Below are positions 30,879-44,548 of a stretch of DNA of 64,000 bases, piece after piece. The stretch spans positions 1-64,000 of the forward strand of contig LWTK01000031.1 in NCBI GenBank assembly GCA_003326205.1. Reading direction: 5' to 3'. This DNA comes from Nostoc sp. ATCC 43529. GTDB taxonomy: Bacteria > Cyanobacteriota > Cyanobacteriia > Cyanobacteriales > Nostocaceae. The first letter of the stretch is position 1. Every line of letters starts with the position of its first letter. The position numbers and the translations under genes are program-made. The notes below the pieces were generated by a model. That model saw only the letters and a program-made list of their open reading frames with translations. It ran no database searches and was not told where the DNA came from.

Positions 30879-31112
30879 TTATTTAGGCAGCCAACCAGCA
30901 CTTAAAACTACTGTTAAACCGAGAAAAATGACTGTTAACGCCCAAGTAACTCGGTTCAAAGTGTTTTCTGCACTTTTAGTGCTGCTAAATAGCTGAGCTT
31001 GTCCACCAATGGCTCCAATACCATCACCTTTGGGGCTATGCAGCAAAACTAAGATAATTAGACCAGTGGCGGAAAAAGCCCAAATGCCTTGCACGATATT
31101 AGTAACTGTCAT
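30879..31112 (-). CDS. secG: Preprotein translocase subunit SecG
   Basis: A 77-residue membrane protein with two helices (about residues 8-25 and 53-74) and the conserved loop HSPKGDGIGAIGGQAQLFSS. SecG assists SecYE in protein export; secY is in the ribosomal cluster at 48698-50008. It lies between gpmI and the protease gene on the same strand. Confidence 0.95.
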   Translation of the reverse strand: MTVTNIVQGIWAFSATGLIILVLLHSPKGDGIGAIGGQAQLFSSTKSAENTLNRVTWALTVIFLGLTVVLSAGWLPK

Positions 31113-31147
31113 GGTAGCAATCTCATTTATAACAAGTTTTAAAAAAG

Positions 31148-31248
31148 AGGAGTTAGGAGTTAGGAGTTAAGAGTTAGGAGTTAGGAAAGTCTGAATTGAT
31201 TGCTCTTTACTATTAACTCCTCACTCTTAACTCTTCACTTTTAACTCT
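31148..31248. repeat. Heptamer repeats (GTTAGGA / TTAACTC) with inverted halves
   Basis: GAGTTAGGAGTTAGGAGTTA units in the first half, ACTCTTAACTCTTCACTT units in the second, complementary to each other. They fill the gpmI-secG spacer and could act as a hairpin between the two genes. Confidence 0.85.
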
Positions 31249-31249
31249 T

Positions 31250-32848
31250 TTACAAGCCTACTTGCACCGGGGTGCGAGTGCGTTGCAGGTCATATTCTGC
31301 CGTTTTCAGCAGCGATCGCCCTGTCATTTCTGGTGGTTGAGGCAGCTGTAAAATCTCTAGAATGGTGGGGGCGATGTCGGCTAGCTTGCCATCGCTTCGC
31401 AGTTCGACATTTGTACCATATCCAGGGATTTTGACTTTTTCTCCTTCCACGAGTATAAAGGGAACTGGGTTAGTTGTGTGAGCTGTCCAGGGATTACCCT
31501 CTTCATCTAGCATATACTCGGCGTTGCCATGATCGGCAGTAATAAGTGTTGTGCCGCCGGCTTTGCTAACGCTTTCTAGTAAGCGTCCCAAACAGCGATC
31601 AACTGTTTCAATGGCTGTAATGGTGGCTTCGATCTGACCAGTATGCCCTACCATGTCTGGGTTGGCATAATTAATTACAACTAAAGAATATAAACCCTTT
31701 TGAATGGCAGCGATCGCTACGTCTGTAACTGCTGCTGCTGACATCGCTGGGGCGTGGTCGTAGGTCGCTACCATTGGACTACTGACTAATTCCCGGTCTT
31801 CGCCAGGAAAAGGTTCCTCCAAACCCCCATTAAAGAAATACGTGACGTGGGCGTATTTTTCGGTTTCGGCGGTGCGGAGTTGCTTGAGATTGTGATTGGC
31901 TATCACTTGTCCCAGAATATTATTCAGGTTCTGCGGCTCAAAAACCACAGCCACGGGTAAGTCTGGGTCGTATTGGGTAAACGTGACAAAAGACAGCGGT
32001 TTGATTTGCTGTCTTTCAAAGCCTGTAAAATCAGGGCTGACAAAGGCTTGAGTCAGTTGTCTGGCGCGGTCGGGGCGGAAGTTGAAAAATATCACTCCAT
32101 CCCCTGCTTCTATCGCACCAGGAGCAATTCTAACGGGGTTGACAAATTCATCTTTTATCCCTTCGGCGTAAGATGCTTGCAAGATTTCTACAGCCTTACG
32201 GTTATCAGCCACTGCATTTTGTGTCATAACATCGTAGGCGCGTTTTACACGATCCCAGCGGCGATCGCGATCCATCGCGTAGTAGCGACCGCTGAGGGTG
32301 ACTATGCGCCCAATTCCTATGCGGTCTATGTAATCTTGTAGCATGGCGATCGCTTTTACACCCTCCGTTGGGGCGGTGTCACGACCATCGGTAATTGCGT
32401 GGATACAAACTTCTGAAATTCGCTGCTCTTTAGCTAAGTCAAGTAGTCCAAACAGATGGGTGATATGGGAATGTACCCCTCCCTCAGAACAAAGCCCTAC
32501 TAGATGCAGCTTGCCATTGCGAGAGCGAACTTCCTGGCAAATTTTGACAAGTGCTGGGTTTGAGGTAATAGAACCATCTTCGACCGCATCAGAGATACGT
32601 ACCAGTTCTTGCGGTACCACTCGCCCAGCACCAATGTTCAAATGGCCAACTTCTGAGTTGCCCATTTGACCATCTGGCAACCCTACGGCTTTCCCTGATG
32701 TGTGGATGAGGGTATGCGGGTAAGCTGCCCATAAACTGTCCACAATCGGAGTTTTAGCAGCAACAATAGCGTTTCCTCGCGTCTGCTCGCAGTAGCCCCA
32801 TCCGTCTAAAATGACTAGCACCACAGGAGCAACAGGTGCTTTGGTCAT
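31250..32848 (-). CDS. gpmI: Cofactor-independent phosphoglycerate mutase
   Basis: A 532-residue alkaline-phosphatase-fold enzyme interconverting 3- and 2-phosphoglycerate with two Mn ions. Visible: D15 in VILDGWG, the catalytic serine S65 in GNSEVGHLNIG, HAITDGRDTAP, FFNFRPDRARQL, and the late metal-binding set NYANPDMVGHTG and ITADHGNAE. Length is normal for cyanobacteria. The ATG is 532 codons from the stop with no good alternative. Confidence 0.98.
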   Translation of the reverse strand: MTKAPVAPVVLVILDGWGYCEQTRGNAIVAAKTPIVDSLWAAYPHTLIHTSGKAVGLPDGQMGNSEVGHLNIGAGRVVPQELVRISDAVEDGSITSNPALVKICQEVRSRNGKLHLVGLCSEGGVHSHITHLFGLLDLAKEQRISEVCIHAITDGRDTAPTEGVKAIAMLQDYIDRIGIGRIVTLSGRYYAMDRDRRWDRVKRAYDVMTQNAVADNRKAVEILQASYAEGIKDEFVNPVRIAPGAIEAGDGVIFFNFRPDRARQLTQAFVSPDFTGFERQQIKPLSFVTFTQYDPDLPVAVVFEPQNLNNILGQVIANHNLKQLRTAETEKYAHVTYFFNGGLEEPFPGEDRELVSSPMVATYDHAPAMSAAAVTDVAIAAIQKGLYSLVVINYANPDMVGHTGQIEATITAIETVDRCLGRLLESVSKAGGTTLITADHGNAEYMLDEEGNPWTAHTTNPVPFILVEGEKVKIPGYGTNVELRSDGKLADIAPTILEILQLPQPPEMTGRSLLKTAEYDLQRTRTPVQVGL

Positions 32849-33372
32849 AGTAAAATTGCCCTTTACTTTTTGTAATACCCGAATGATACCATTGCTAATC
32901 GCTGCCGCAAGTGAATTTCTGCTTATTAACTTCTTTTATGAACGACTTGCAGCTTTTTGAGACATTTTTTAAATATTAGTAATTTTTCTATGATGTTTTT
33001 GGTCTTGAATAATTAGTGATTATTTAGTAGCCTGTCATGCATTTAAGTTGCATATCAAGTTGTGAGGTTGTTCATTGTACTTTGCCATTTGTTGGTAGTA
33101 ACCGATAACTCAATGATTGATGAACAATAACAGTATTGGTAAAAAATGCAATATTTAGGCGTGTTAGTTTGATTAACATTTTCAGCAACCCACCAAGCAA
33201 CTCACCAGTTATTAGCTGTATTTTAAATACTTAAATTTAGAGAAGAGTCAACAGTTATCAGTAACATTGATAATTGGTAACTGATAACTGTAGGACAAAG
33301 TAGTTGTTAACCACACAGAAAACTGACAAATGATAACCGTTGAGCTTTACTAGTAAGCTATTTTCCAGTTGA
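32849..33372. other. Intergenic region with one inverted repeat
   Basis: About 520 bp between gpmI and the ABC-F gene. ACAGTTATCAGT (33251-33262) and ACTGATAACTGT (33280-33291) form a perfect 12-bp hairpin downstream of the ABC-F gene. The block recurs in shortened form nearby and is probably an interspersed repeat. No gene is seen. Confidence 0.5.
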
Positions 33373-35067
33373 TCATTTTCTTTTGGAGGCAGCTTTGGCA
33401 GCCTTGGCAGCTTTTTTAGCAGCTTTCTCGGCTTCTATTGCAGCTAACTTTGCTTGTTCTTTTTCTTCGGCAATTTTTTGGAGATAGTAATGATAATCTC
33501 CTAAATAAACACGGAATTCTCCATCCCGAATCTCAACAATTTTGTTGGCTACTTGAGAGATAAAGTAGCGGTCATGGGATACAACAATTGCCGTACCATC
33601 ATAATTTTGCAGGGCTTCTTCCAGCATTTCTTTAGCTGGAATGTCTAGGTGATTTGTCGGTTCATCCAAGATTAATAAGTTTGCGGGACGTAAAAGCATT
33701 TTTGCCAATGCCAAACGAGCTTTTTCTCCCCCGCTTAATGCGCCAACTGCCTTAAATACTGTGTCACCACTAAATAAAAACCGTCCTAAAAGTGTGCGGA
33801 CTTCTTCATTTTTCCAATCTGGAACTTCATCATGGATTGTTTCCATGACAGTTTTCTTCAAGTCCAAAGCTTCAGCTTGATTTTGTTCAAAGTAACCAGG
33901 AATAACATTATGATCGCCTAATTGAATAGTACCTTCTGTAGGTTGTTCCATACCCATAATTAGGCGCAGAAGTGTAGATTTGCCAGCACCGTTGGGACCG
34001 AGAAAAGCAATGCGATCGCCTCTTTCAATTAAGAGATTCGCTCCCAAAAACAAAATTTTATCATCATAGATATGAGTAAAATCTTTAATGCTCACGACTT
34101 CGCGTCCGCTGCGAGGTGCGGGAGGAAAGCGAAAATGTAGAGTTCTCACTCCAGCTATAGGTGCTTCGATGCGCTCAATTTTTTCCAGTTGCTTTTCCCG
34201 GCTTTTTGCCTGGGTACTGCGGGTAGCACTGGCGCGAAATCGATCGACAAAAACTTGTTGTTTTTCTAATTCTTTCTGCTGGCGTTCGTAAGCACTCAGT
34301 TGTGCTGATTGATTTTCGGCTTTCTGTTCCAGATATGCAGAATAGTTGCCGAGGTAAGTTGTAGAAACACCGCGTTCGGTTTCCACAATTTGGGTGCACA
34401 GACGGTCAAGAAATTCCCGGTCATGGGAAACTATTACCATCGGAGTAATTAGTCCCTTAAGATAATTTTCCAGCCACTCAATGGTTTCTAAATCCAGATG
34501 GTTAGTTGGTTCGTCCAGCAGTAATAAGTCAGGTTTTTGCAGCAGTATTTTACCCAAACTCATCCGCATTTGCCAGCCGCCACTAAAAGCACTGACAAGG
34601 CGATCGCCATCTTCTACTCCAAATCCCATTTCTGGTAAGATTTTCCCAATGCGTGCGTCTAAGCCATAGCCATCCAAAGCTTCAAATTGTCGCTGTAAAC
34701 GATCCAATTTGTTGATTAGCCGTTCGAGTTCCTCTGGAGTAGCGGTTTCCATCTCGCGTTGTACTTCCGCTAGAGATAACTGTACTTGGTTGGCTTCTTT
34801 AAAAACTGTCCAAAATTCTTCTCTAACGGTGCGCGTGGGGTCTACTTCAAACTCTTGGTTGAGGTAAGCTATGTGTAAGCTGGCAGGACGAATGATTTCC
34901 CCAGCCGTGGGTTCCATTTCCCCAGTGATAATTTTGAGTTGGGTAGATTTTCCAGCACCGTTGACACCGACTAAGCCAATGCGATCGCCTGGTTTAACTT
35001 CCCAGTTGATATCTTTGAGAACTTCGCCTGTAGGATAAATTTTACTAATATGTTCGAGTCGCAGCAT
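33373..35067 (-). CDS. ABC-F family ATPase
   Basis: A 564-residue protein with two ATP-binding cassettes and no membrane segment: Walker A GVNGAGKST and GPNGAGKST, signatures FSGGWQMR and LSGGEKAR, Walker B LLLLDEPTNHLD and LLILDEPTNHLD. The 70-residue linker between domains (SAYERQQKELEKQQVFVDRF...) is the ribosome-contacting P-site-tRNA motif. The Ala/Lys-rich tail (KAAKKAAKAAKAASKRK) is low-complexity. ABC-F proteins relieve stalled or drug-bound ribosomes; this one is closest by eye to the Uup/YheS-like type rather than a known resistance factor. Confidence 0.93.
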   Translation of the reverse strand: MLRLEHISKIYPTGEVLKDINWEVKPGDRIGLVGVNGAGKSTQLKIITGEMEPTAGEIIRPASLHIAYLNQEFEVDPTRTVREEFWTVFKEANQVQLSLAEVQREMETATPEELERLINKLDRLQRQFEALDGYGLDARIGKILPEMGFGVEDGDRLVSAFSGGWQMRMSLGKILLQKPDLLLLDEPTNHLDLETIEWLENYLKGLITPMVIVSHDREFLDRLCTQIVETERGVSTTYLGNYSAYLEQKAENQSAQLSAYERQQKELEKQQVFVDRFRASATRSTQAKSREKQLEKIERIEAPIAGVRTLHFRFPPAPRSGREVVSIKDFTHIYDDKILFLGANLLIERGDRIAFLGPNGAGKSTLLRLIMGMEQPTEGTIQLGDHNVIPGYFEQNQAEALDLKKTVMETIHDEVPDWKNEEVRTLLGRFLFSGDTVFKAVGALSGGEKARLALAKMLLRPANLLILDEPTNHLDIPAKEMLEEALQNYDGTAIVVSHDRYFISQVANKIVEIRDGEFRVYLGDYHYYLQKIAEEKEQAKLAAIEAEKAAKKAAKAAKAASKRK

Positions 35068-35222
35068 TAAGTTTCTCTCAGGTAGGGAGTGGGTGATTGA
35101 GGACGAAGTACTAACACCGCTTCCAATATTAACAAAAATTAACTATGAATTCGTTGCGATCGAGTTTGGACGGGCGCAAACAAAGTTTACCTTTACTCAC
35201 GCATAAAACTTATGCATCCCTC

Positions 35223-35575
35223 TTAAGGCTGATTTTGTGTTACTTGTCTAACTTCTTCGACACTCAAATCTAATGCTTCTGCTACTTGTTCTACAGTTAA
35301 CCCTGCTGCCAACATTGCTGGTACTGCTTTCAGTTTCCCTTGAACCTTACCTTGTTCAATGCCTTGTTCAACACCTTCCTGAAAGGCTTCCTGATAAAAT
35401 CTGGTTTGCTTTAACTCGCTTAAGCCAAACATTTCCTCCATCTCCTCCCTACTCATTGCAGGAAATTTGTAAGCCAATATAGTCTCTATAAATTGTAATA
35501 ATTGCTGCTGTTTTGGTGGTCAGCTTATTTCTGACTTGGTTCTGTCTATCAACACCCTTGCTTGTGCGATCGCTA
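35223..35575 (-). pseudogene. Remnant of an Rpn/DUF2887-type nuclease-transposase gene
   Basis: The last 84 codons from TTG 35477 read LAYKFPAMSREEMEEMFGLS, then LKQTRFYQEAFQEGVEQGIEQGKVQGK and a degenerate HTH-like tail. This is the conserved C-terminus of the Rpn/DUF2887 family, with its E-x3-G repeats. The same frame continues upstream through PPKQQQLLQFIETI to an in-frame TGA (35520-35522). Beyond it ARVLIDRTKSEIS still matches the family. The catalytic PD-(D/E)XK part is absent, so the gene is decayed. Confidence 0.75.
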
Positions 35576-35625
35576 TGATGTCTGTTTTCACAATTTTATA
35601 TCAATTGAATATTTTGATTTGCTGT

Positions 35626-36123
35626 TCAGATGCTACTTTCTTTTTCCGAACCATATCGCACTTCTAGTAACCGTTCTTTTGCTATTCCTAATATTCGTGA
35701 AAGTGGTGCTAATAAACTATCATCAAATGCTTCTCCAGCATAAATATTATTTAGTTCAGTGGGGGATAGTTTAAAAGTATCGCAGAATTTAGCAAACTCT
35801 TGATTACCGAGGTCAAGTTCCTTTTGGCGATCGCGCAATAAAAGAGCGATCGCCCTAGTTCCATATTTGGGACGTTCGCTACTTTTGATATATCTTTGAA
35901 TTAAATAATTTACTTTATTCGTGTCGCCACCCATTTTTTTGATTAAATCAGTGCAAGCTTGTTTAAGTGCTTTTTTAAATACTTCTTCATCATTCAAAAA
36001 ACTAATTATTTCGCTGGCATATTCTTGTTTAAAAAAACCAACTAAATTGCCTTGATGGTAAATTGGTATATAAGCATTGTTCGTTTCAACTTGCCAGTCT
36101 AAAGGCTCATTGCGTAGCGACAT
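35626..36123 (-). CDS. Unrecognised protein, 165 residues
   Basis: Starts MSLRNEPLDWQVETNNAYIP behind AAAGGGGT. The N-terminal 60 residues look like a small beta domain (YIPIYHQGNLVGFFKQEYASEIISFLNDEE). The C-terminal half (LGNQEFAKFCDTFKLSPTELNNIYAGEAFDDSLLAPLSRILGI) has the helix spacing of a HTH_3-like DNA-binding or regulator domain. It lies between a decayed Rpn gene and the AT-rich GTPase-nuclease cassette on the opposite strand, so a regulatory link to that cassette is possible but unproven. Confidence 0.55.
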   Translation of the reverse strand: MSLRNEPLDWQVETNNAYIPIYHQGNLVGFFKQEYASEIISFLNDEEVFKKALKQACTDLIKKMGGDTNKVNYLIQRYIKSSERPKYGTRAIALLLRDRQKELDLGNQEFAKFCDTFKLSPTELNNIYAGEAFDDSLLAPLSRILGIAKERLLEVRYGSEKESSI

Positions 36124-36577
36124 AGATACCCCTTTAAATCATTTAAGATTTCACCATTTTAAAACCATTTTTTATTACCTGCCAGTGGTTATATTTTAGT
36201 CAGATATCTAAAAACATCAATTGTTAAAACAAGTGCCATTTGCCGCCAGAAGCACAGGTTATTTGAAAGCATTTCACTTTTTCAAATCGCCCACAATACT
36301 TACCACTGCCTGACAAACAAAGCCTTATCCACGCGGCTATATCTAAGTAATTCCGCGCTGATGGACTATATTTGTGTGGCTATAATTGAAATTATTTAAG
36401 TATTTATACTATAATTTTGAGCTAAAGTAAAATTAGCGATCGCCTTGCTCATCGCCAAGTAGCTAAAGTTTTACCAGAGAAGGGATTGGTAGTGTTACGA
36501 GGCTGTTGTTAGATATTCAACCATAATGGGCATACTGTAAATATCAAGTAAGTAGGCATTGAAACAGGGTAAACAGT
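36124..36577. other. Intergenic region upstream of the GTPase-nuclease cassette
   Basis: About 450 bp. A HIP1 site stands at 36437. A frame fragment HRQVAKVLPEKGLVVLRG (near 36450-36508) may be a gene remnant. No clear promoter motif is recognised; the plus-strand cassette begins at 36578 after CAGGGTAAACAGT. Confidence 0.4.
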
Positions 36578-38614
36578 ATGTTGACGATAACATGGCAAGA
36601 AGAGATTGCATCCTTAAAACAAGATTTGAAGAAGGAAATTAAAAAAATATCAGGTAAATCTGAAATTAATATACCTAATCATATTTGCATAAATAACCTG
36701 AAATCCAAGTTAGAGCGATTAGATGAAATAGAGAAAATTCTTAGTATAGAAAAATATAAAATTGCTTTTATAGGTACTATTGGTCAAGGAAAGACCACAG
36801 CTATTTGTCATCTTTTTAACTTAATAAGCGATTTCAATGTTTCCAAAACTATTGCTAATAAGTCTAGAAACGTAATCGAAACCAAAGAGTTGCTATCAAC
36901 CGGAGGAGGTAGAACTACTATATGTGAAGTAATTATCAAAGCTGCGGAAAAAACTTACATAGAGATAGAGCCTTATTCAGTTGATGAGATGGAAAATCTT
37001 ATTTTTGAATTCTGCGACTATATTGCAGATAAATATAAAGACAATCCTCAAGCAGATCAGAAGATAATTATTTCTAAAGAAGTTGAAAGAGCTATTAGGA
37101 ATATTACAGAAATGAAGTCACGGTATCAAACAATTTCTGAGGGTGATAAAAAGAAAACTGAAATAGATGTAGCTCAGGAAGAATTTGAAAAATTAGGATT
37201 AGATGAATTCAAAAAACTTGCTTTGAATAATGCAAGACTGGAATCTAGAACTACGAATAAGATTGAATTTGATAATAAAAAGAAGGAGCAAGAATGGATA
37301 AAAAATACTTTCGCTGCTATTAATAATGTTGAGTTTAAGGAGTTCGCTATCCCCAGAAAAATATATCTTTATGTGAGCTATGATGTTTTATCTGGATCAA
37401 ACTTGTCTCAGTTCGATTCCGTTGTTGATACTAAAGGACTTGATGAAAATCCAATTCGTAAAGACTTACAGAAATATATTGAGAATCAGGATACGATCTG
37501 TCTTTTTGTAACTCCTTTTAATGCTGCTCCTGAAGCTAATATTAGTAAATTAATAGGTTATCATCTTGCATCTAAATCTAAAGATTTTCATCATAGATTT
37601 ATAACTTTGGTATTACCTAAAAAAAATGAACCTGAAAAAGTGAATGAATGCGACGGAGATTATGATATAGGAATTCAAATCAGAAAAAAAGAAATTCACT
37701 CTACATTCAGGAATTCAAATTTAGAATTTTTCTCAGAAAATATTTTGTTCTATGATGCTTTGAGGTACTACCGTGATGATATAGTCAAGCTCAATACTGA
37801 TATTTACAGTAAAGAAGATGTACAGGCAGATAAAGATGATTTTATCAAAGCTGTAGCCGATGTAGTAGAACGTAGGCAAAATATTTTATTAGATGAAATA
37901 AAAAATATCCGAGCAAGCTTTACGAGAATAAAAAATGGTGATGCTTTGACAGGTTCAGAAATCAAGGCGATTGAAAATGCTATTCAGAAAATAAAAGATT
38001 TAGAGGATTTGAGTAAAAGAGTACAAAGTTTTCTTTATCAAGACAAAGGTCGAGATAAAGGTTTTGTTACTAAATATATTGAATACTATCATAATGTTTA
38101 TCCAGCATGGAATACTAAACACGCTATTCATAGCAACTTTGGTTACTATGAACTAAGGAATATAGATATCTATTACGATATGAGAGTTTTTGCTGAGGGA
38201 ATAGATGAAGATGAAATGTTAAAGAAGTTTACTAAGCAACCAAAACAGGAATTAGAAAATATTCTGAATGACCTAACATTTGCAAATGAATCTTTAAAAA
38301 CATTTATCCCTGAATTAGTTATACAATTTAACTCATTGTATGATGATTTTATCAGTAAAGTAGGAAAAGCAATTGAAGATCAAGCTAAGACAAAATTATT
38401 ACCTCGAAGCGAAGATTCTAAATTTTGGGAGGCTCTGATTAAGGAAAAAGGTAAGGTAAGACCTCGAGGTGAAACCTATACAGATAATGTATGTCAGACC
38501 TTGAAGCGTGAACTTGAAAAGGAGCAAAGCTTAAATACATTTTTAGAGACTCAAGCAGTAAAGCATTGGAAAAAATTAGTTGTTAAAATATTAAACTTTT
38601 TTGGAGAAATATAG
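36578..38614 (+). CDS. Large dynamin-like P-loop GTPase, first gene of an AT-rich two-gene cassette
   Basis: A 678-residue protein. Residues 1-60 form a helical lead. The GTPase core has P-loop GTIGQGKTT (66-74), a switch-I-like TGGGRTT (108-114) and G3 motif DTKGLD (284-289). A long charged insertion (about 135-250) separates G2 from G3, and no clean NKxD is present (LVLPKKNEPEKVNE stands in its place). The C-terminal 300 residues are helical and highly charged, suiting a dynamin stalk or coiled coil, and end in KHWKKLVVKILNFFGEI, which could bind membrane. Codon use is far more AT-rich than in surrounding genes. It lies 93 bp before a nuclease gene. I know no named family for it. Confidence 0.8.
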   Translation: MLTITWQEEIASLKQDLKKEIKKISGKSEINIPNHICINNLKSKLERLDEIEKILSIEKYKIAFIGTIGQGKTTAICHLFNLISDFNVSKTIANKSRNVIETKELLSTGGGRTTICEVIIKAAEKTYIEIEPYSVDEMENLIFEFCDYIADKYKDNPQADQKIIISKEVERAIRNITEMKSRYQTISEGDKKKTEIDVAQEEFEKLGLDEFKKLALNNARLESRTTNKIEFDNKKKEQEWIKNTFAAINNVEFKEFAIPRKIYLYVSYDVLSGSNLSQFDSVVDTKGLDENPIRKDLQKYIENQDTICLFVTPFNAAPEANISKLIGYHLASKSKDFHHRFITLVLPKKNEPEKVNECDGDYDIGIQIRKKEIHSTFRNSNLEFFSENILFYDALRYYRDDIVKLNTDIYSKEDVQADKDDFIKAVADVVERRQNILLDEIKNIRASFTRIKNGDALTGSEIKAIENAIQKIKDLEDLSKRVQSFLYQDKGRDKGFVTKYIEYYHNVYPAWNTKHAIHSNFGYYELRNIDIYYDMRVFAEGIDEDEMLKKFTKQPKQELENILNDLTFANESLKTFIPELVIQFNSLYDDFISKVGKAIEDQAKTKLLPRSEDSKFWEALIKEKGKVRPRGETYTDNVCQTLKRELEKEQSLNTFLETQAVKHWKKLVVKILNFFGEI

Positions 38615-38707
38615 GTAAAAATAAATTTTAAATTGCATGATAAATACAAAGGGACGTAGCAAAATTGCATCCCTACAATCATTTTTAAACTAAATTATTT
38701 CTTAATT

Positions 38708-39436
38708 ATGACTAGTTTAAATGAAGAAATATCAATAAAACTAAATATATATAAGAGAAACTATGCAGAATACACAAAGTGTTTGATTAGAGGAAGGGAA
38801 ATTGTTATTGATGGAAGACCAGAAGAAAAAGTTAGACAAATTTTTATATACTTTCTAGTAAATGAAAGTGGTTTATTTCCGAATGAAATTGACATCAAAG
38901 TTGAATCTAATAATCATGATATAGAATTATATAGAACCGTCAAAAATAAAAATTTTAAACCCTATCAACCTCCTTTGATGATTGTGGAAGTGAAGCGAGA
39001 AGAAGAAGATTTACAGAATCATGAGAATCAAATTCAAAGATACCTAAAAAAATCTTGTTCAGAAATAGGTGTTTTATATAATTATCATGAAATTATTGCA
39101 TATACAAAGAAAGACAAAGTATTTACGAATAATTATCTAAATAGTATTGAGGATATACCATCTTTAATCTTACAAAGTTCTAATATATTAGAGAAGGACA
39201 TCCTAGAATTTGAAAAAGCTGTTAATGGAAGTTTTAAGAGCTTTATTTATCTTATTAATAAATATGGTAAGTATAAACTGAATACAATAATTTTTAGACT
39301 TAAAGGTGAACAATTACCTATATCAGGCACTTTCTTTGAATTTCAAGATAATAAGGTAAACTATTTTAAAAATGGTAAAAATTGGCAAAGCTTTAATTAC
39401 CAAGATTTTGAAAGGTTAATTTCTATTACTTATTGA
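38708..39436 (+). CDS. PD-(D/E)XK nuclease resembling the HsdR N-terminal domain, partner of the GTPase
   Basis: A 242-residue protein. GRPEEKVRQIFIYFLVNESG (residues 36-55), D71 in HDIELY and EVK (94-96) in PPLMIVEVKREE form a PD-(D/E)XK active site. NQIQRYLKKS (107-116) gives the QxxxY motif typical of type I restriction HsdR N-terminal nuclease domains. No helicase or methyltransferase is attached or adjacent, so it is not a restriction system in the usual sense. The C-terminal 100 residues are unlike anything I recognise. Same AT-rich composition and strand as the GTPase gene, so the two probably form one transferable unit. Confidence 0.78.
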   Translation: MTSLNEEISIKLNIYKRNYAEYTKCLIRGREIVIDGRPEEKVRQIFIYFLVNESGLFPNEIDIKVESNNHDIELYRTVKNKNFKPYQPPLMIVEVKREEEDLQNHENQIQRYLKKSCSEIGVLYNYHEIIAYTKKDKVFTNNYLNSIEDIPSLILQSSNILEKDILEFEKAVNGSFKSFIYLINKYGKYKLNTIIFRLKGEQLPISGTFFEFQDNKVNYFKNGKNWQSFNYQDFERLISITY

Positions 39437-39489
39437 CAAACTATAACGCGTCTTCAAATAACAAACGATCGTCAGAAAAATTGCAGGAA

Positions 39490-39954
39490 TTATCCTTCCC
39501 AGTCTTGACGAGTATCGCATAGAAAATTTTCCGCGATCGCATCATCAAATAAATAAGGGCAAGACTCTGGAAAAGTTCGTAATGGTAAGTTAGTTTCTCG
39601 TAGCGCCAAATCAACTCCAGCTTCAAACCCATCTAACAAAGCTTCTTCTATTCGAGACTTTAAGCTAGGGTTCTGCCGCAAATGCCTGTGGATGGCACGA
39701 CGCTGTTCTCGAATCGTTAAAAACCAACTGCGAGAGCGTTGTTCGGGTTGATATTCCCACTTCAAGAGATGACCGAGTAATACACTCAGACAGCTCACTA
39801 GCTCCCGATACTCGTGTCTGCCCAAAGCTTGAATTTCCTCTTGCAGGTGTCGCCAGTCTAGTTCCGTAACTAGCTTCTGCTCTAACGCTTTAGCCTGCTG
39901 CTGTGTCCAGCCATAGAAGTCTTGGTCATACAAATCAGGTTTGTCCATATCCAT
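39490..39954 (-). CDS. DUF29 family protein
   Basis: About 154 residues from ATG 39954 (MDMDKPDLYDQDFYGWTQQQ). The diagnostic features are YDQDFYGWTQQQAKAL, LDWRHLQEEIQALGR, a central HLLKWEYQPEQRSRSW and a C-terminal LPLRTFPESCPYLFDDAI. DUF29 proteins are small cyanobacterial and proteobacterial proteins of unknown function, often in many copies; a decayed copy is at 29760-30014. The last residues (ENFLCDTRQDWEG) deviate from the usual W-L/W-F-P end. Confidence 0.9.
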   Translation of the reverse strand: MDMDKPDLYDQDFYGWTQQQAKALEQKLVTELDWRHLQEEIQALGRHEYRELVSCLSVLLGHLLKWEYQPEQRSRSWFLTIREQRRAIHRHLRQNPSLKSRIEEALLDGFEAGVDLALRETNLPLRTFPESCPYLFDDAIAENFLCDTRQDWEG

Positions 39955-40062
39955 ATAAATGAATCTTGACAGCAAGAAACCACAAGCTAATTTAACAAGG
40001 GGGATCTAAATCCTTCACTGGTTACATTCAGAATTCAGAATTCTGAATTTCTGAACAAATAT

Positions 40063-40425
40063 TCAACTGGCTTTTGCTTCGTCGCCTGACGCTTCAGCCA
40101 CAGCAGCAAACCTATCCGCCGCAGCCTGAACGATTTGAGCCACTTGGCTAAGAGGCATGTGCTGTATTTGTCTGAGAATCAAACTTAAATCTGAGGTTTC
40201 TTGTATTGGCTTGCCATCCAAGCAACTAAGTAACTCTTGGAGTGTGTAACCCGCTCTCGCTGCGATTTTTGCCAAATATTCTGTGTCTGGCACATTTACA
40301 CCCTTTTCCCACAACTGAACAGCAGTAGCAGAAACTCCCAAAAGCTTGCCAAAAGCTCGCTGGCTCATGGAACCACGAGCTAGTTTGATGATTTCAATCA
40401 GTTTTTCTCTGCTTTCGATGTTCAC
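40063..40425 (-). CDS. XRE-family HTH DNA-binding protein
   Basis: A 120-residue protein. Residues about 5-65 form an HTH_3 domain (GSMSQRAFGKLLGVSATAVQLWEKGVNVPDTEYLAKIAARAGY). An Ala-rich helical C-terminus (SQVAQIVQAAADRFAAVAEASGD) may serve dimerisation. No toxin gene is adjacent. It could regulate neighbouring genes or itself. Confidence 0.85.
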   Translation of the reverse strand: MNIESREKLIEIIKLARGSMSQRAFGKLLGVSATAVQLWEKGVNVPDTEYLAKIAARAGYTLQELLSCLDGKPIQETSDLSLILRQIQHMPLSQVAQIVQAAADRFAAVAEASGDEAKAS

Positions 40426-40616
40426 TGCTTGTGTAGCTAGTCAACTGCATTTATTAGTTTAGTGAGAAACTCTAAAATTTTGATTTTATATTGACAAGTT
40501 TAATTGTTAATGATAATTTAAATAAACATTGTAAATAAGCAACGTTAATTTCAATTATAGACTATAGACGCTGCTACGTTATTTGGCATTGTTGCCAATC
40601 AGATAAAAGGTGCATC

Positions 40617-41066
40617 ATGTTTTCCAAGCCACGCCAAATAAAAAAATATCGCCGTAAAGGTCGAAATTTCATAGCCGCTAATAAAATTAAACCAGAGCAG
40701 TGGCAAATTTCAAACCGTGAAGCAAAACAAGCTCTCAAAACCAAAGGCTATCAGATTAAGCAAATCAAGAAAATTCACTGTCTGAAGCATCAGGTGTGTA
40801 TCTCTTACTGGGATACGGCAGGTAACATCTGTAGTAGCTTTTTCAGCTACCGGATTTTTGGGCGTTGGCAACAAGAAGTAGAAAATTTAATTTATACTTG
40901 CGAAACACTGAAGGAATGGGCAAAGGTAAATTACGTTATGAAATACGAACTTGCTTATTATAGCTATCCCAGTGAAATTGAAGATGCACTTTGCGCTGCA
41001 TTAGAAAACCGCTTGCATGTGTTAAAAGGAACATTGCAACAAGCGGTTTATCAGAAGTTTTACTAA
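40617..41066 (+). CDS. Unrecognised basic protein, 149 residues
   Basis: Begins MFSKPRQIKKYRRKGRNFIA. The first 45 residues are strongly basic. A Cys/Trp-containing middle (HCLKHQVCISYWDTAGNICSSFFSYRIFGRWQQE) follows, then a helical C-terminus. A ribosome-binding-like AAAGGTG precedes the ATG. It runs into the end of prfA tail to tail with a 6-bp gap. The basic N-terminus hints at nucleic-acid binding, but no family is recognised. Confidence 0.55.
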   Translation: MFSKPRQIKKYRRKGRNFIAANKIKPEQWQISNREAKQALKTKGYQIKQIKKIHCLKHQVCISYWDTAGNICSSFFSYRIFGRWQQEVENLIYTCETLKEWAKVNYVMKYELAYYSYPSEIEDALCAALENRLHVLKGTLQQAVYQKFY

Positions 41067-41072
41067 TAAAAA

Positions 41073-42170
41073 TTAATTAGCGCTAGCAGTTGCTAATTCA
41101 GCTAGACGTTCCTGTTGGTCTTGGGAGATGCAAGATTGGATAATAGTCTCCAAATCGCCTTCCAAGACTGGATTAAGAGAATAGTTTTGACCTAAACGGT
41201 GGTCGGTAACGCGGTTGTCTTTATAATTGTAAGTGCGAATTTTTTCCGATCGCGATCCCGTTCCAACTTGCGATCGCCGCATGGAAGTTACAGCTTCTTG
41301 TTGTTCGCGTAACTTCATTTCATACAACTTCGCCCGCAAAATTTGCATCGCTCGTTCTTTGTTTTGCAACTGGCTGCGTTCTTCCGTACAGAAAATGCGA
41401 ATTCCTGTAGGTTTGTGCATCAAGTCAACGGCTGTTTCCACCTTGTTGACGTTTTGTCCGCCAGCACCGCCAGAACGAGCCGTGGTCATTTCAATATCTT
41501 TCGGGTCAATGTGAATTTCCACATCATCGACTTCTGGCATAATTGCCACTGTAGCAGTAGAAGTGTGAACACGTCCGCCTGCTTCTGTCAAGGGCACCCG
41601 CTGTACGCGATGCACTCCAGCTTCAAACTTTAGCTGACTGTAAACGTCGTCACCTTTAATTTCCAGAATCACTTCTTTCCAGCCACCCATTTCTCCCAAA
41701 GATTCGCTCACTAGAGAAACTTTCCAACCTTGAGTTTGGGCGTAGCGAGTGTACATCCGCATCAAATCGCCAGCCCAAATACTGGCTTCATCACCACCTG
41801 TACCAGCGCGAATTTCCAACATGATATTCTTTTCATCATTGGGGTCACGTGGTAGCAGTAAGACTTTCAAGCGACTCTCTAAGTATTCTATTTTTTCCTC
41901 AAGTTCATCTACTTCCAGTGCTGCCATTTCTTGCAACTCTGGGTCACTGGCAGATTCTTTGTAAACCTGACGCGCTCCTGTCAAGTCTTCTTGGGCTATC
42001 TTCCAAGTTTCATAGGTATTAACTACCTCTTCCAAAGAAGAACGAGACTTAGCAATTTGTTGATACTCATCAGGGTTGCTAGCGGTATCGGGGTCGCCAA
42101 GACGACGCGTTAATTCATTAAAGGTTTGTTCAACGGATTTTAGTTTTTCCAGTAAGTATGTTTCAGCCAT
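41073..42170 (-). CDS. prfA: Peptide chain release factor 1
   Basis: A 365-residue RF1, reading UAA and UAG stop codons. The catalytic GGQ is in [18 protein letters not shown]. Domain 1 helices ([20 protein letters not shown]) and the [19 protein letters not shown] segment are typical. It is the last gene of the ribosomal cluster on the minus strand, 105 bp after rpmE; the gap has a CGACCC/GGGTCG hairpin without a T-run. Confidence 0.97.
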
Positions 42171-42275
42171 GACGAGTGCGATCGCTCCTTAAAAAAATAA
42201 CAAATTGGCTCGAGCATATAAATGACAATCGACCCCGAAAAATGCAGGGTCGTCGTTAACAGCAGAGCCAACCCG

Positions 42276-42515
42276 CTACTTTTTCTTTTTGGTGCCGGAG
42301 CTTTGTTCGCTGGACATACCGTATTTGCGGAGGAACCGCTCAACTCTACCTTCGGTGTCGATAATCTTCTGAGTACCAGTGTAAAATGGGTGATTTCCAG
42401 ACCAAACATCTACGTGTAATTCTGGCTTGGTGGAGCCAACGGTCATCACAACTTGACCGTTACAGTAGACTTTAGCGTCTGGATACCACTTGGGGTGAAT
42501 ATCAGATTTAGCCAT
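42276..42515 (-). CDS. rpmE: 50S ribosomal protein L31
   Basis: A 79-residue L31 (MAKSDIHPKWYPDAKVYCNG). Only one cysteine (C18) is present, so this is the zinc-free (C-minus) form. VDVWSGNHPFYTGTQK is the family signature. The C-terminus is Lys-rich (SSEQSSGTKKKK). Confidence 0.96.
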   Translation of the reverse strand: MAKSDIHPKWYPDAKVYCNGQVVMTVGSTKPELHVDVWSGNHPFYTGTQKIIDTEGRVERFLRKYGMSSEQSSGTKKKK

Positions 42516-42660
42516 TGTTCCTTTTGTGGTGAATCTATAAGAATTATAACTTTTCGGTTTGAATTAGGACTAGAGACTGGGGATTAGGGACTGGGAAAGA
42601 GAAAAAAACTGACTTACTTTTTCTAATACCCAATGCCCTGTTTGGCCAATGGCCCATATC

Positions 42661-43077
42661 CTAACGTTTAGAGTACTGAGGTGCTTTCCGGGCTTTGTGT
42701 AAACCATATTTTTTCCGCTCTTTTGCCCGCGGATCGCGAGTTAGATAACCTTCGGTTTTCAAAGGTGGGCGGTTGTCTGGGTCTAGTTGGCACAAAGCAC
42801 GAGCAACTCCCAAGCGGACAGAATCAGCCTGTCCGGTCAAGCCGCCGCCTTCTGCTTTTACCAAAATGTCATATTCATTTTCTAGTCCCAAAGTTTCCAA
42901 AGGTGCTTTGATGACTCCCAGGTAATTGGCATTAAATTGGAAATACAAGTCTCCATCTTTACCATTGACAGTCAGTTTACCAGTACCTGGAACCAGGCGT
43001 ACTCTTGCTACTGCGGACTTTCGACGACCAGTACCCCAGTACACGGCGCGGCCGCTATTGGTGTCTACTGCTACCAT
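42661..43077 (-). CDS. rpsI: 30S ribosomal protein S9
   Basis: A 138-residue S9 with [22 protein letters not shown] and the invariant C-terminal tail KAPQYSKR that contacts P-site tRNA. Its ATG overlaps the rplM stop by 1 nt, as expected for the rplM-rpsI pair. Confidence 0.98.
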
Positions 43078-43538
43078 TAACTTTCTTCTCCAGGAATTGT
43101 ACTAATTTTTAGTTCTTTGGGTTTTTGAGCTTCGTGGGGATGAGTTGGCCCAGCGTAAACTTTCAGCTTGGTGAATAGCTGCTTACCCAAGCTATTTTTG
43201 GGTAGCATACCTTTGACAGCGTGTTCTAAAATCCGCTCTGGCAGGCGCTGTTGCAGCTTAGCAAAGGTTTCGGTTTTCATCCCACCGGGACGGCCAGAAT
43301 GGCGACGGTACACTTTTTGAGTGCGCTTTTTGCCTGTGACTGCTACTTTCTCAGCATTAACAACGATTACGAAATCACCTGTATCTAAGTGTGGTGTAAA
43401 TTCGGGTTTGTTTTTGCCTCTGAGGATTTGAGCGATTTCACTAGCGAGGCGTCCGAGGCGTTTATCGGTGGCATCTACTACGTACCACTCACGCTCAAGG
43501 GATGCTTGAGGAGGAAGGTATGTTTTAACTATTGTCAT
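43077..43538 (-). CDS. rplM: 50S ribosomal protein L13
   Basis: A 153-residue L13 with [31 protein letters not shown] and [12 protein letters not shown], all family signatures. It leads the rplM-rpsI pair within the cluster. The 161-bp spacer upstream has heptamer and TTTGTC repeats. Confidence 0.98.
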
Positions 43539-43699
43539 TTGTTATTTTTCCTTGTCCTTTGTCTTCTCTTACAAAGTTCTGTACCCTGGGGGATGGCAAA
43601 GCAATCGTCAAAAGCCGACGCACCCTGCCTTAAGCAAGCTACAGGCTTTGCGCTTTGTCATTTGTCCTTTGTAATTTGTCAGTCGTCCTTTGTTATTCA

Positions 43700-44548
43700 C
43701 TAATGACTAATGACTAATGACTCTTGACCAATGACCAACTTTGGCAGGGTATCGTACCAAATCTCTTTTGGAAAGGGAAAATCTGGGTAGCCTACTCGCA
43801 ACAAGCACAAACCTTGAGCTGGTGCGGCGTGTTTGACTTCTTGGCGGCGTTCCTCTTTCCAGAGTTCGGTGAAGTTGGAAAGTGTACGTTCTCCAGAACC
43901 TACTTGTACCAACATTCCTACCAACAGCCTTACCATGCCATATAAAAATCCATCTGCCTGTATTTCAATATGGATAAATGGCCCACTGCGACGACACTCT
44001 GCTGCTTGTACCTCTACCCAGGAATGCGATCGCTTTGAGCCTGCACGATGAAAAGCAGCTAAGTGATGCTTTCCCAACAGAGGTTTGAGGGCAGCTTGGA
44101 TTAATGATTCATCCAGGGGTGCATAATAATAATGCCAACTGAAGGGTTTCACGAACAAGTTAAGTCGATCTTCAGTGTATATTGTGTAGCGATACCGCCG
44201 ATAGGCTGCACTAAAGCGGGCGTGCCAACGGCAGTCTACACCAGCTGAAGCCCTGATTAATATATCTGGTGGCAGATAGCTGTTGAGAATTGTTGCCCAC
44301 TTGTGAGCGGGAATTAAACCTGTTGCTTCAAAATGGGCGACTTGAGCAGCAGCATGTACACCGGCATCGGTTCGTCCAGCGCCGTGTAATGTTACATGAT
44401 GTCCCAGAATAGTAGCGATCGCTTTTTCGATCTCTTCCTGGACTGTACGCTGGTTCTTTTGCCTTTGCCAGCCATGAAAATGAGTGCCCAGGTATTGGAT
44501 TACCAAGGCTACTCGCTGAGTTTGTGTAGGCTGGTGGCTTTCTAACAT
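43700..44548 (-). CDS. truA: tRNA pseudouridine(38-40) synthase TruA
   Basis: A 282-residue enzyme making pseudouridine in the anticodon arm. The catalytic aspartate is D61 in GAGRTDAGVHA; FHGWQRQ, YRYTIY and FLYGMVRLLVG are conserved. The last residues (LVIGQESLVISH) and the stop codon are encoded by TCATTAG/TCATTGG repeat units, so the natural C-terminus has been replaced or extended by the repeat. Confidence 0.97.
   Translation of the reverse strand: MLESHQPTQTQRVALVIQYLGTHFHGWQRQKNQRTVQEEIEKAIATILGHHVTLHGAGRTDAGVHAAAQVAHFEATGLIPAHKWATILNSYLPPDILIRASAGVDCRWHARFSAAYRRYRYTIYTEDRLNLFVKPFSWHYYYAPLDESLIQAALKPLLGKHHLAAFHRAGSKRSHSWVEVQAAECRRSGPFIHIEIQADGFLYGMVRLLVGMLVQVGSGERTLSNFTELWKEERRQEVKHAAPAQGLCLLRVGYPDFPFPKEIWYDTLPKLVIGQESLVISH

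Follow-up and report, generated by a model that had tools for sequence, protein, structure and literature searches.

What might two adjacent genes be doing whose base composition sets them so clearly apart from the DNA around them? The genes in question lie in a stretch of 64,000 nucleotides (positions 1 to 64,000 of the forward strand of contig LWTK01000031.1, assembly GCA_003326205.1) from the cyanobacterium Nostoc sp. ATCC 43529, which we call the window throughout. One encodes a large P-loop NTPase and the other a small nuclease, and the earlier note on this DNA had suggested that they form an unnamed module restricting phages or plasmids. Our comparative analysis leads to a similar reading, to which we would give a probability of roughly 0.6, namely that the pair is a mobile two-gene defense module against invading DNA (of phages or plasmids) in which a nucleotide switch controls a nuclease. 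The two genes are the following:

36578..38614, + strand: gene for a P-loop NTPase, probably dynamin-like, 678 amino acids; intact open reading frame
38708..39436, + strand: gene for a PD-(D/E)XK nuclease of the HSDR_N_2 type, 242 amino acids, with a conserved C-terminal region; recognized by PF13588 and invariant alignment columns

We refer to the large protein as the GTPase, GTP rather than ATP being its likely substrate. The earlier note had placed both genes and remarked on their AT bias, and both observations hold: the two open reading frames are intact and lie on the same strand with a spacer of 93 bases between them, and the GC content of the pair is 0.29 compared to 0.42 in the rest of the window; of 612 sliding windows of 2859 base pairs (bp), 12 have a GC content of 0.31 or less. 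The GTPase gene is present as a single copy in the 8.46-Mb genome, and its nearest named relatives are found in Nostoc and other Nostocaceae.

Linkage and co-evolution of the two genes

Of 7998 candidates that were scored, 374 are related to the GTPase at E ≤1e-3, and 101 of 514 candidates match the nuclease. In 29 of 44 loci from named genomes, the nuclease gene is encoded directly downstream of the GTPase gene (at −10 to +178 bp), and these paired loci span four phyla. Among them are Nostocales, Spirulina, Pseudanabaena, Candidatus Contendobacter (Pseudomonadota), a metagenome-assembled genome (MAG) of Chitinophagaceae (Bacteroidota), and a MAG of Planctomycetaceae (Planctomycetota) with a split GTPase gene; one of the pairs (L028) is decayed. 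Two further loci have only a remnant of the nuclease (L033) or lie on a contig that ends inside the GTPase gene so that the downstream region is not readable (L025). The pair described in the earlier note thus recurs in unrelated genomes of Cyanobacteriota, Pseudomonadota, Bacteroidota, and Planctomycetota.

Linkage is also tight within the window's own family, for which we examined 217 genomes. A GTPase match or remnant is present in 45 of them. Matches to the nuclease, irrespective of their quality, occur in 59 genomes; many of these are fragments or belong to different HsdR_N proteins. Each of the 35 full-length nucleases has a GTPase piece at a distance of 90–174 bp, and all 27 genomes with an intact GTPase of the close type also carry an open nuclease gene. 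Additional open frames of 708–720 amino acids in three genomes (G039, G137, and G148) match the GTPase only partially. In a sample of the whole phylum, GTPase-family matches were found in 8 of 386 genomes, and this patchy distribution, together with the absence of any curated family that the protein would reach, speaks against a housekeeping family. Nostoc sp. S4 has three copies of the GTPase family, i.e., the decayed L028 at the same genomic site as in the window, an intact pair elsewhere (L008), and a broken distant relative (L031).

The phylogenies of the two proteins mirror each other closely, with a Spearman correlation of 0.94 over 23 rows (those of the window and of one plasmid plus 21 of the 29 paired loci) that was reached in 0 of 999 permutations. 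Broken, partial, or near-duplicate loci had been left out of this comparison (L016, L020, L021, L027, L028, L032, L034, and L035). The correlation is still 0.89 when only the 18 closest rows are considered (again 0 of 999 permutations), and the pair is therefore an evolutionary unit whose members co-evolve. Inside the window's clade, the nuclease groups with those of L005 and L006 while the GTPase does not, so that recombination at the level of single genes seems likely there.

Both proteins have kept the residues expected to matter for their activity. The nuclease matches HSDR_N_2 (PF13588) with an E value of 3e-9 and 37.4 bits (cut-off 25), and an alignment of 25 sequences from four phyla with identities down to 24% has ten invariant residues (E39, E40, R43, Q44, E66, D71, E94, K96, Q108, and Y112). 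These include the predicted active site composed of D71, E94, K96, Q108, and Y112, i.e., the catalytic D...ExK and the QxxxY motif, which agrees with the earlier assignment to the PD-(D/E)XK nucleases of the HsdR N-terminal type on the basis of D71, EVK, and QxxxY. No solved structure matched the nuclease below E 0.36 as a single sequence or at E ≤10 as a profile.

The GTPase carries a G1 motif at residues 66–74, a G2-like patch at 108–117, and the G3 motif DTKG at 284–287. Invariant positions in a 30-member alignment with identities down to 23% are G66, G69, the P-loop residues G71–H78, G111, T113, T114, E117, D284, T285, and G287, so the motifs pointed out earlier are indeed present and conserved. 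This alignment comprises 18 of 120 listed GTPases and 12 proteins from our loci, without broken GTPases and that of L023; a plasmid-borne branch fused to a helix-turn-helix (HTH) domain has a looser P-loop. The ratio of nonsynonymous to synonymous substitution rates (dN/dS), calculated against six chosen loci, is 0.23–0.29 for the GTPase and 0.15–0.24 for the nuclease. From these low values and the preserved active sites it follows that both genes are under purifying selection.

Mobility, a variable slot, and the wider family

The pair is also mobile. In Candidatus Contendobacter, it has a GC content of 0.31 inside flanks of 0.65 and joins the pair of Phormidium and Pseudanabaena with support values of 98–99 in both trees, a placement to be read with long branches in mind. 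At this locus (L023, 7865–11968), the open frame of the upstream gene runs into the GTPase gene without a stop codon, giving 1367 amino acids. On a Pseudanabaena plasmid, the two genes follow one another without a gap, close to mazF and an Rpn gene. Grouping by common flanks divides the 44 loci into at most 28 groups, as short contigs may form groups of their own, and one group of 10 named loci corresponds to the site found in the window. There, the pair is located between two chromosomal genes that delimit a slot of variable content:

35626..36123, − strand: left boundary gene of the slot, 165 amino acids, not part of the system
about 36200..39474, strand not applicable: presence/absence block missing from sister genomes, defined by comparison of sister loci
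39490..39975, − strand: DUF29 gene delimiting the slot on the right, does not belong to the system

The 165-amino-acid boundary protein matches the C-terminal part of the PADLOC retron model RT_I-B (E 4.2e-5). Its gene turned up in 43 of 53 genomes, and 30 of its loci were fetched for comparison. In the window's genus, the slot (36124–39489 in the window) holds very different cargo. Nine loci contain the pair, intact or broken, two contain remnants of it, and another two a remnant together with an acyltransferase gene. The slot is empty in five loci, while the others harbor an open reading frame of 154–160 amino acids or a broken copy thereof (5/30), a DUF4336 protein (3/30), an AT-rich HEPN protein (3/30), or an MmeI-like Type IIG restriction-modification (RM) enzyme (1/30; PADLOC E 0). 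One example per cargo type was scanned for domains and the others were assigned by DNA similarity. The HEPN protein alternating with the pair (L145 1807–2868; 353 amino acids; PF05168, E 2.4e-9; no PADLOC match at 1e-5) is possibly a defense gene of its own. No target-site duplication was seen by eye in four empty alleles, which contain ca. 120–165 bp of other sequence and in some cases share edge sequence with alleles carrying other cargo, so that insertion and deletion cannot be distinguished at this site.

One argument for mobility put forward in the earlier note had to be given up. The region 35223–35575, described there as decayed mobile genes next to the pair, is a shortened gene of the DUF2887 (Rpn-like) family that belongs to the chromosomal backbone. 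It is present in eight of nine fetched sister regions and therefore says nothing about the mobility of the pair, and we rejected the idea that the pair had arrived together with such genes.

The slot also bears on the view that the two genes are a selfish or housekeeping pair of DNA metabolism, e.g., involved in repair, plasmid stability, or addiction, without any role against invaders. The recurrence of ten named loci at one chromosomal site, the mostly ordinary neighbors elsewhere, and the low dN/dS values are what one would expect from it. However, the patchy presence and frequent decay of the pair, the different cargo at this slot in sister genomes, among it an RM enzyme, the occurrence of the pair in distant phyla with foreign GC content, and the carriage of the family on cassettes and plasmids fit accessory genes of genetic conflicts better, and we consider this alternative quite improbable.

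Relatives of the GTPase beyond the paired loci travel in several additional ways. Five very similar, solitary GTPases of gammaproteobacteria (L036, L037, L038, L041, and L042 from Alishewanella, two Nitrincola, Marinobacterium, and one MAG) have 5' junctions that resemble each other and attC-like tails of one kind, beyond which the genes are unrelated. Such a tail is also found behind other genes, e.g., on an Enterobacter plasmid, where it adjoins a gene for SMR efflux. These solitary GTPases look like integron cassettes by the arrangement of their ends. Integrons often carry phage-defense genes.

Another branch, mostly annotated as HTH proteins, resides on plasmids; for 17 of the 20 records that match, the alignment extends over 80% of the query or more. 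Fourteen of these 20 records were opened, and 12 could be judged because two lacked usable annotation. An HSDR_N nuclease or a defense-type gene is close to the GTPase gene in five of the 12, i.e., a DUF262 gene next after it on Sphingopyxis and Sphingobium plasmids, a Septu ptuA gene next after it in Agrobacterium 1D1108 (3.7e-165), a gene for a GajA-like protein as the second gene upstream of it in Aminobacter (3.1e-49), and the Pseudanabaena GTPase–nuclease pair. Two more have a hipA toxin gene upstream, and the remaining five (Citrobacter, Roseomonas, Rhizobium 248, Mesorhizobium amorphae, and R. leguminosarum Ta9k) show no clear defense neighbor. Beyond these plasmids, a Shewanella GTPase is followed by HsdR (Type I, E 0), and HsdM is encoded next to the GTPase on an IMG/VR contig with tail-like genes (2e-179). 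A search of E. coli genomes gave no match to the Citrobacter GTPase gene.

The defense reading of the family draws on this carriage by plasmids, a phage-like contig, and integron-like cassettes, in some cases beside RM, Septu, or GajA-like genes, and on the Type IIG RM enzyme found instead of the pair at the slot of one sister locus. At somewhat less than even odds, we would tentatively go further and regard the proteins as an unnamed family of nucleotide-switched immune proteins, in which a dynamin-like core acts alone or with interchangeable executors (an HsdR-N nuclease, DUF262, or parts of Type I RM systems) and spreads as slot, plasmid, phage-like, or cassette cargo across at least four phyla.

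What the pair may do

If the pair is indeed a defense module, the large protein would serve as a dynamin-like nucleotide switch that senses some sign of invasion as its trigger. Nucleotide binding and self-assembly of this protein would then recruit the PD-(D/E)XK nuclease into a complex or otherwise license it, and the licensed nuclease would cut the nucleic acid of the invader, presumably DNA rather than RNA. The proposal of the earlier note, a module against phages or plasmids, thereby survives in its core: the family context favors it, the two genes co-occur in other genomes, no housekeeping family was matched by the GTPase, and the nuclease motif is conserved. What has fallen away is the argument from neighboring mobile genes, and part of the family does without the nuclease, so a defense role should be read as the interpretation that fits best.

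Several results weigh against this reading, first with regard to the class of the large protein. The match of the window's GTPase to Dynamin_N has an E value of 0.33 and 11.4 bits, short of the curated cut-off of 27 bits. When the 30 family members were scanned singly, Dynamin_N matched only four of them (best 1.1e-4) and was thus less common than AAA_22, which matched 21 (best 2.2e-6); AAA matched nine (best 0.0062). In comparisons of the family profile with ten single dynamins, one match reached 82.9% over 199 columns and nine stayed below 25%, while an ABC-F control reached 85.6%, albeit over the P-loop only (36 columns). Finally, the G4 motif [NT]KxD does not form a conserved column in the 30 sequences, being present in at most four of them at one place. 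The designation as a GTPase is therefore tentative.

Other comparisons, those of whole profiles, point toward dynamins. The 30-member family profile matched a profile of six dynamins from the same genome at 82% over 105 columns, and a 35-member version did so at 95.5% over 72 columns, both covering G1–G2. Controls with PtuA, a GajA-like protein, HsdR, MmeI, and PGAM gave 7% or less, and PtuA and the GajA-like protein align with the family over at most 25 columns. We also obtained matches to the PADLOC LeoBC model for six of the 30 members (best 2e-5). For the window's own GTPase, neither Pfam nor NCBIfam contains a family that it reaches at the curated cut-off, PADLOC gave no match, and the search against solved structures returned only P-loops of FtsY/SRP receptors below E 0.01. 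The dynamin assignment is weakened by the nine misses among single dynamins and strengthened to a similar degree by the 95.5% profile match. The large protein is probably a dynamin-like P-loop NTPase by these comparisons, and the earlier description as dynamin-like is moderately supported, i.e., by the profile match over G1–G2 and despite the poor Dynamin_N score and single-dynamin comparisons.

The same question of class bears on a translocating restriction system resembling McrBC, in which the NTPase would be a motor moving along DNA and driving the nuclease to cut modified DNA. A nucleotide-hydrolyzing partner combined with a PD-(D/E)XK nuclease follows the same logic, the AAA_22 matches mentioned above are in line with a motor of this kind, and DUF262 (GmrS-type) proteins like those encoded next to the GTPase on two plasmids are linked to modification-dependent restriction (PMC4619093). 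However, DTKG and the profile comparison covering G1–G2 moderately favor a dynamin-like over an AAA+ protein, and no McrB, DUF3578, or DUF2357 family was found for the window's proteins, so we hold this mechanism to be highly improbable.

The behavior of the wider family provides further counterpoints to the defense reading. GTPases without a nuclease are found at ten of our named loci (L029–L031, L036–L038, L040–L042, and L044), and two genomes of the window's family (G094 and G191) have open GTPases of a distant type with no nuclease match; because such branches exist, the nuclease may be optional. Among the first 25 families listed for 106 neighbors (of 121 candidates) at 23 loci outside of the window's slot, transporters are the commonest Pfam families, and no PADLOC family matches more than one protein, with no background measured for comparison; the PADLOC singletons include a Type II RM set, SoFic, a BrxH/DpdJ-like helicase, and a reverse transcriptase. 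Neither form of the GTPase has a match in 50,697 phage records. In IMG/VR, there was none for the single window protein and two for each profile, on three different contigs in all.

Solitary GTPases are the starting point of the main rival to a switch-controlled nuclease, an abortive-infection or toxin-like module in which the GTPase itself would be the effector, acting on membranes or filaments, with the nuclease as an accessory or control and with triggered cells dying or stalling. The GTPase is what the whole family has in common, and it occurs alone in the integron-like cassettes and several plasmid forms. There is also a precedent, as the dynamin-like DynA is reported to delay phage lysis in Bacillus subtilis (PMC8844932). 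On the other hand, the GTPase has no hydrophobic segment that could cross a membrane (the highest 19-residue Kyte-Doolittle mean is 1.03), although amphipathic paddles may still be present, and in the HSDR_N branch the nuclease has an invariant active site and co-evolves with the GTPase, i.e., it is no spare part. The pattern of decay is relevant here as well. Within the window's family, a broken GTPase gene lies beside a full-length nuclease gene in eight of 35 cases (G084, G119, G120, G122, G127, G140, G143, and G150), while a broken nuclease gene beside an intact GTPase gene of the close type was not found in any of the 217 genomes. This asymmetry of 8 to 0 agrees with an effector GTPase and also with the switch model, in which the nuclease would probably be tame by itself; it hints at a costly GTPase and a nuclease that does no harm alone. 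Given the 2.8-fold difference in length, it is not significant (0.737^8 = 0.09). Altogether, we regard an effector GTPase as unlikely and continue to prefer the switch-controlled nuclease.

How the two proteins might be expressed is suggested by two conserved elements outside of the coding regions:

36500..36577, + strand: conserved leader before the GTPase start, largely invariant in the window and seven other loci
38651..38673, + strand: intercistronic hairpin with seven stem pairs, with paired changes in related cyanobacteria

By its position and conservation, the leader is a probable promoter or 5' region of the pair, though consensus promoter sites are not in excess there. For the hairpin, 96.0% of 174 cells are paired across 25 distinct spacers, and four of the seven pairs show two-sided changes; sliding the partner reduces pairing to 35–69%. 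Of 500 shuffles, a control inflated by relatedness and with the stem read from the same sequences, none reached the observed pairing, 10 the number of stem pairs changed on both sides, and 21 the number of pair types. These spacers are 25 of 30 distinct ones, without L019, L023, L024, and L026 (short or unrelated) and L032 (a near-duplicate of L002), and the stem leaves out an outer neighboring pair that fails in 11 of the 25 rows and an inner one that fails in two. Folding of single spacers gives a weak value for the window (z −0.63), −1.22 for L008, and −3.70 for L012. At the Contendobacter locus, a strong, unrelated hairpin occupies the corresponding position between the genes (z −3.12). 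In the window's genome, the hairpin pattern occurs at only one other place, a terminator scan did not flag it, and no Rfam family near the pair reached its gathering score. The hairpin may set the ratio of the two proteins.

Comparison with known systems

The closest parallel in logic is McrBC, which likewise combines a nucleotide-hydrolyzing protein with a PD-(D/E)XK nuclease in two genes and needs no methylase. Unlike McrB, an AAA+ protein with an NxxD signature and a DNA-binding N-terminal domain, the window's large protein is a DTKG P-loop protein without such domains, and its partner matches HSDR_N_2 instead of the DUF2357 of McrC. According to one study, the NxxD signature is a defining feature of McrB (PMC11090510); it was not searched for in the window's protein. 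The large protein matches no McrB or AAA family at E ≤1 in Pfam, NCBIfam, or PADLOC, and neither DUF3578 nor DUF2357 was found for the two proteins. We therefore rejected membership in McrBC, in agreement with the earlier view of a likeness in logic only, while the weak AAA matches of other family members keep the class of the large protein open.

Bacterial dynamin-like proteins such as DynA, BDLP, and LeoA/LeoBC appear to share the G1–G3 layout. They differ in that the window's protein passes neither LeoBC nor Dynamin_N and has neither a conserved G4 nor a hydrophobic segment, and in that its partner is a nuclease instead of a second dynamin. The LeoABC system, also known as Eleos, was rejected given that neither protein matches LeoA or LeoBC and that there is a single dynamin-like gene. 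With Type I restriction, the pair shares the N-terminal nuclease domain of HsdR (PF13588) as its small protein. Helicase, methylase, and specificity subunits are absent, a GTPase-like protein takes their place as partner, and none of HsdM, HsdS, or the HsdR helicase was found among the open reading frames of 31000–44000 (seven scanned for domains), for which reason a Type I RM system was rejected as well. GmrSD resembles the sister GTPases followed by DUF262 on the Sphingopyxis and Sphingobium plasmids; the window's pair is without DUF262, and this assignment was also dismissed.

In the main text on DefensePredictor, the words GTPase and dynamin are absent (PMC13092281), and the open-access literature that we searched yielded no description of a GTPase–nuclease pair. 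Screens for enrichment in defense islands could miss such systems because most pairs studied here have ordinary neighbors.

Gabija and Septu are defense pairs of an NTPase and a nuclease with ATPases of the ABC/OLD type, and they are linked to the family by the PtuA following one sister GTPase and the GajA-like protein encoded two genes upstream of another. To our knowledge, known defense modules of this kind use AAA+, ABC/OLD, or helicase motors, and we know of no described bacterial restriction system in which a dynamin-type GTPase switch licenses a restriction-type nuclease. The pair itself would belong to this known kind of NTPase-plus-nuclease modules, and the family stands a fair chance of going beyond it. 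Control of a PD-(D/E)XK nuclease by a dynamin-like switch would link two fields, membrane-type GTPases and restriction, and a conserved family hitherto labeled as "hypothetical protein" or "helix-turn-helix regulator" would have found its function.

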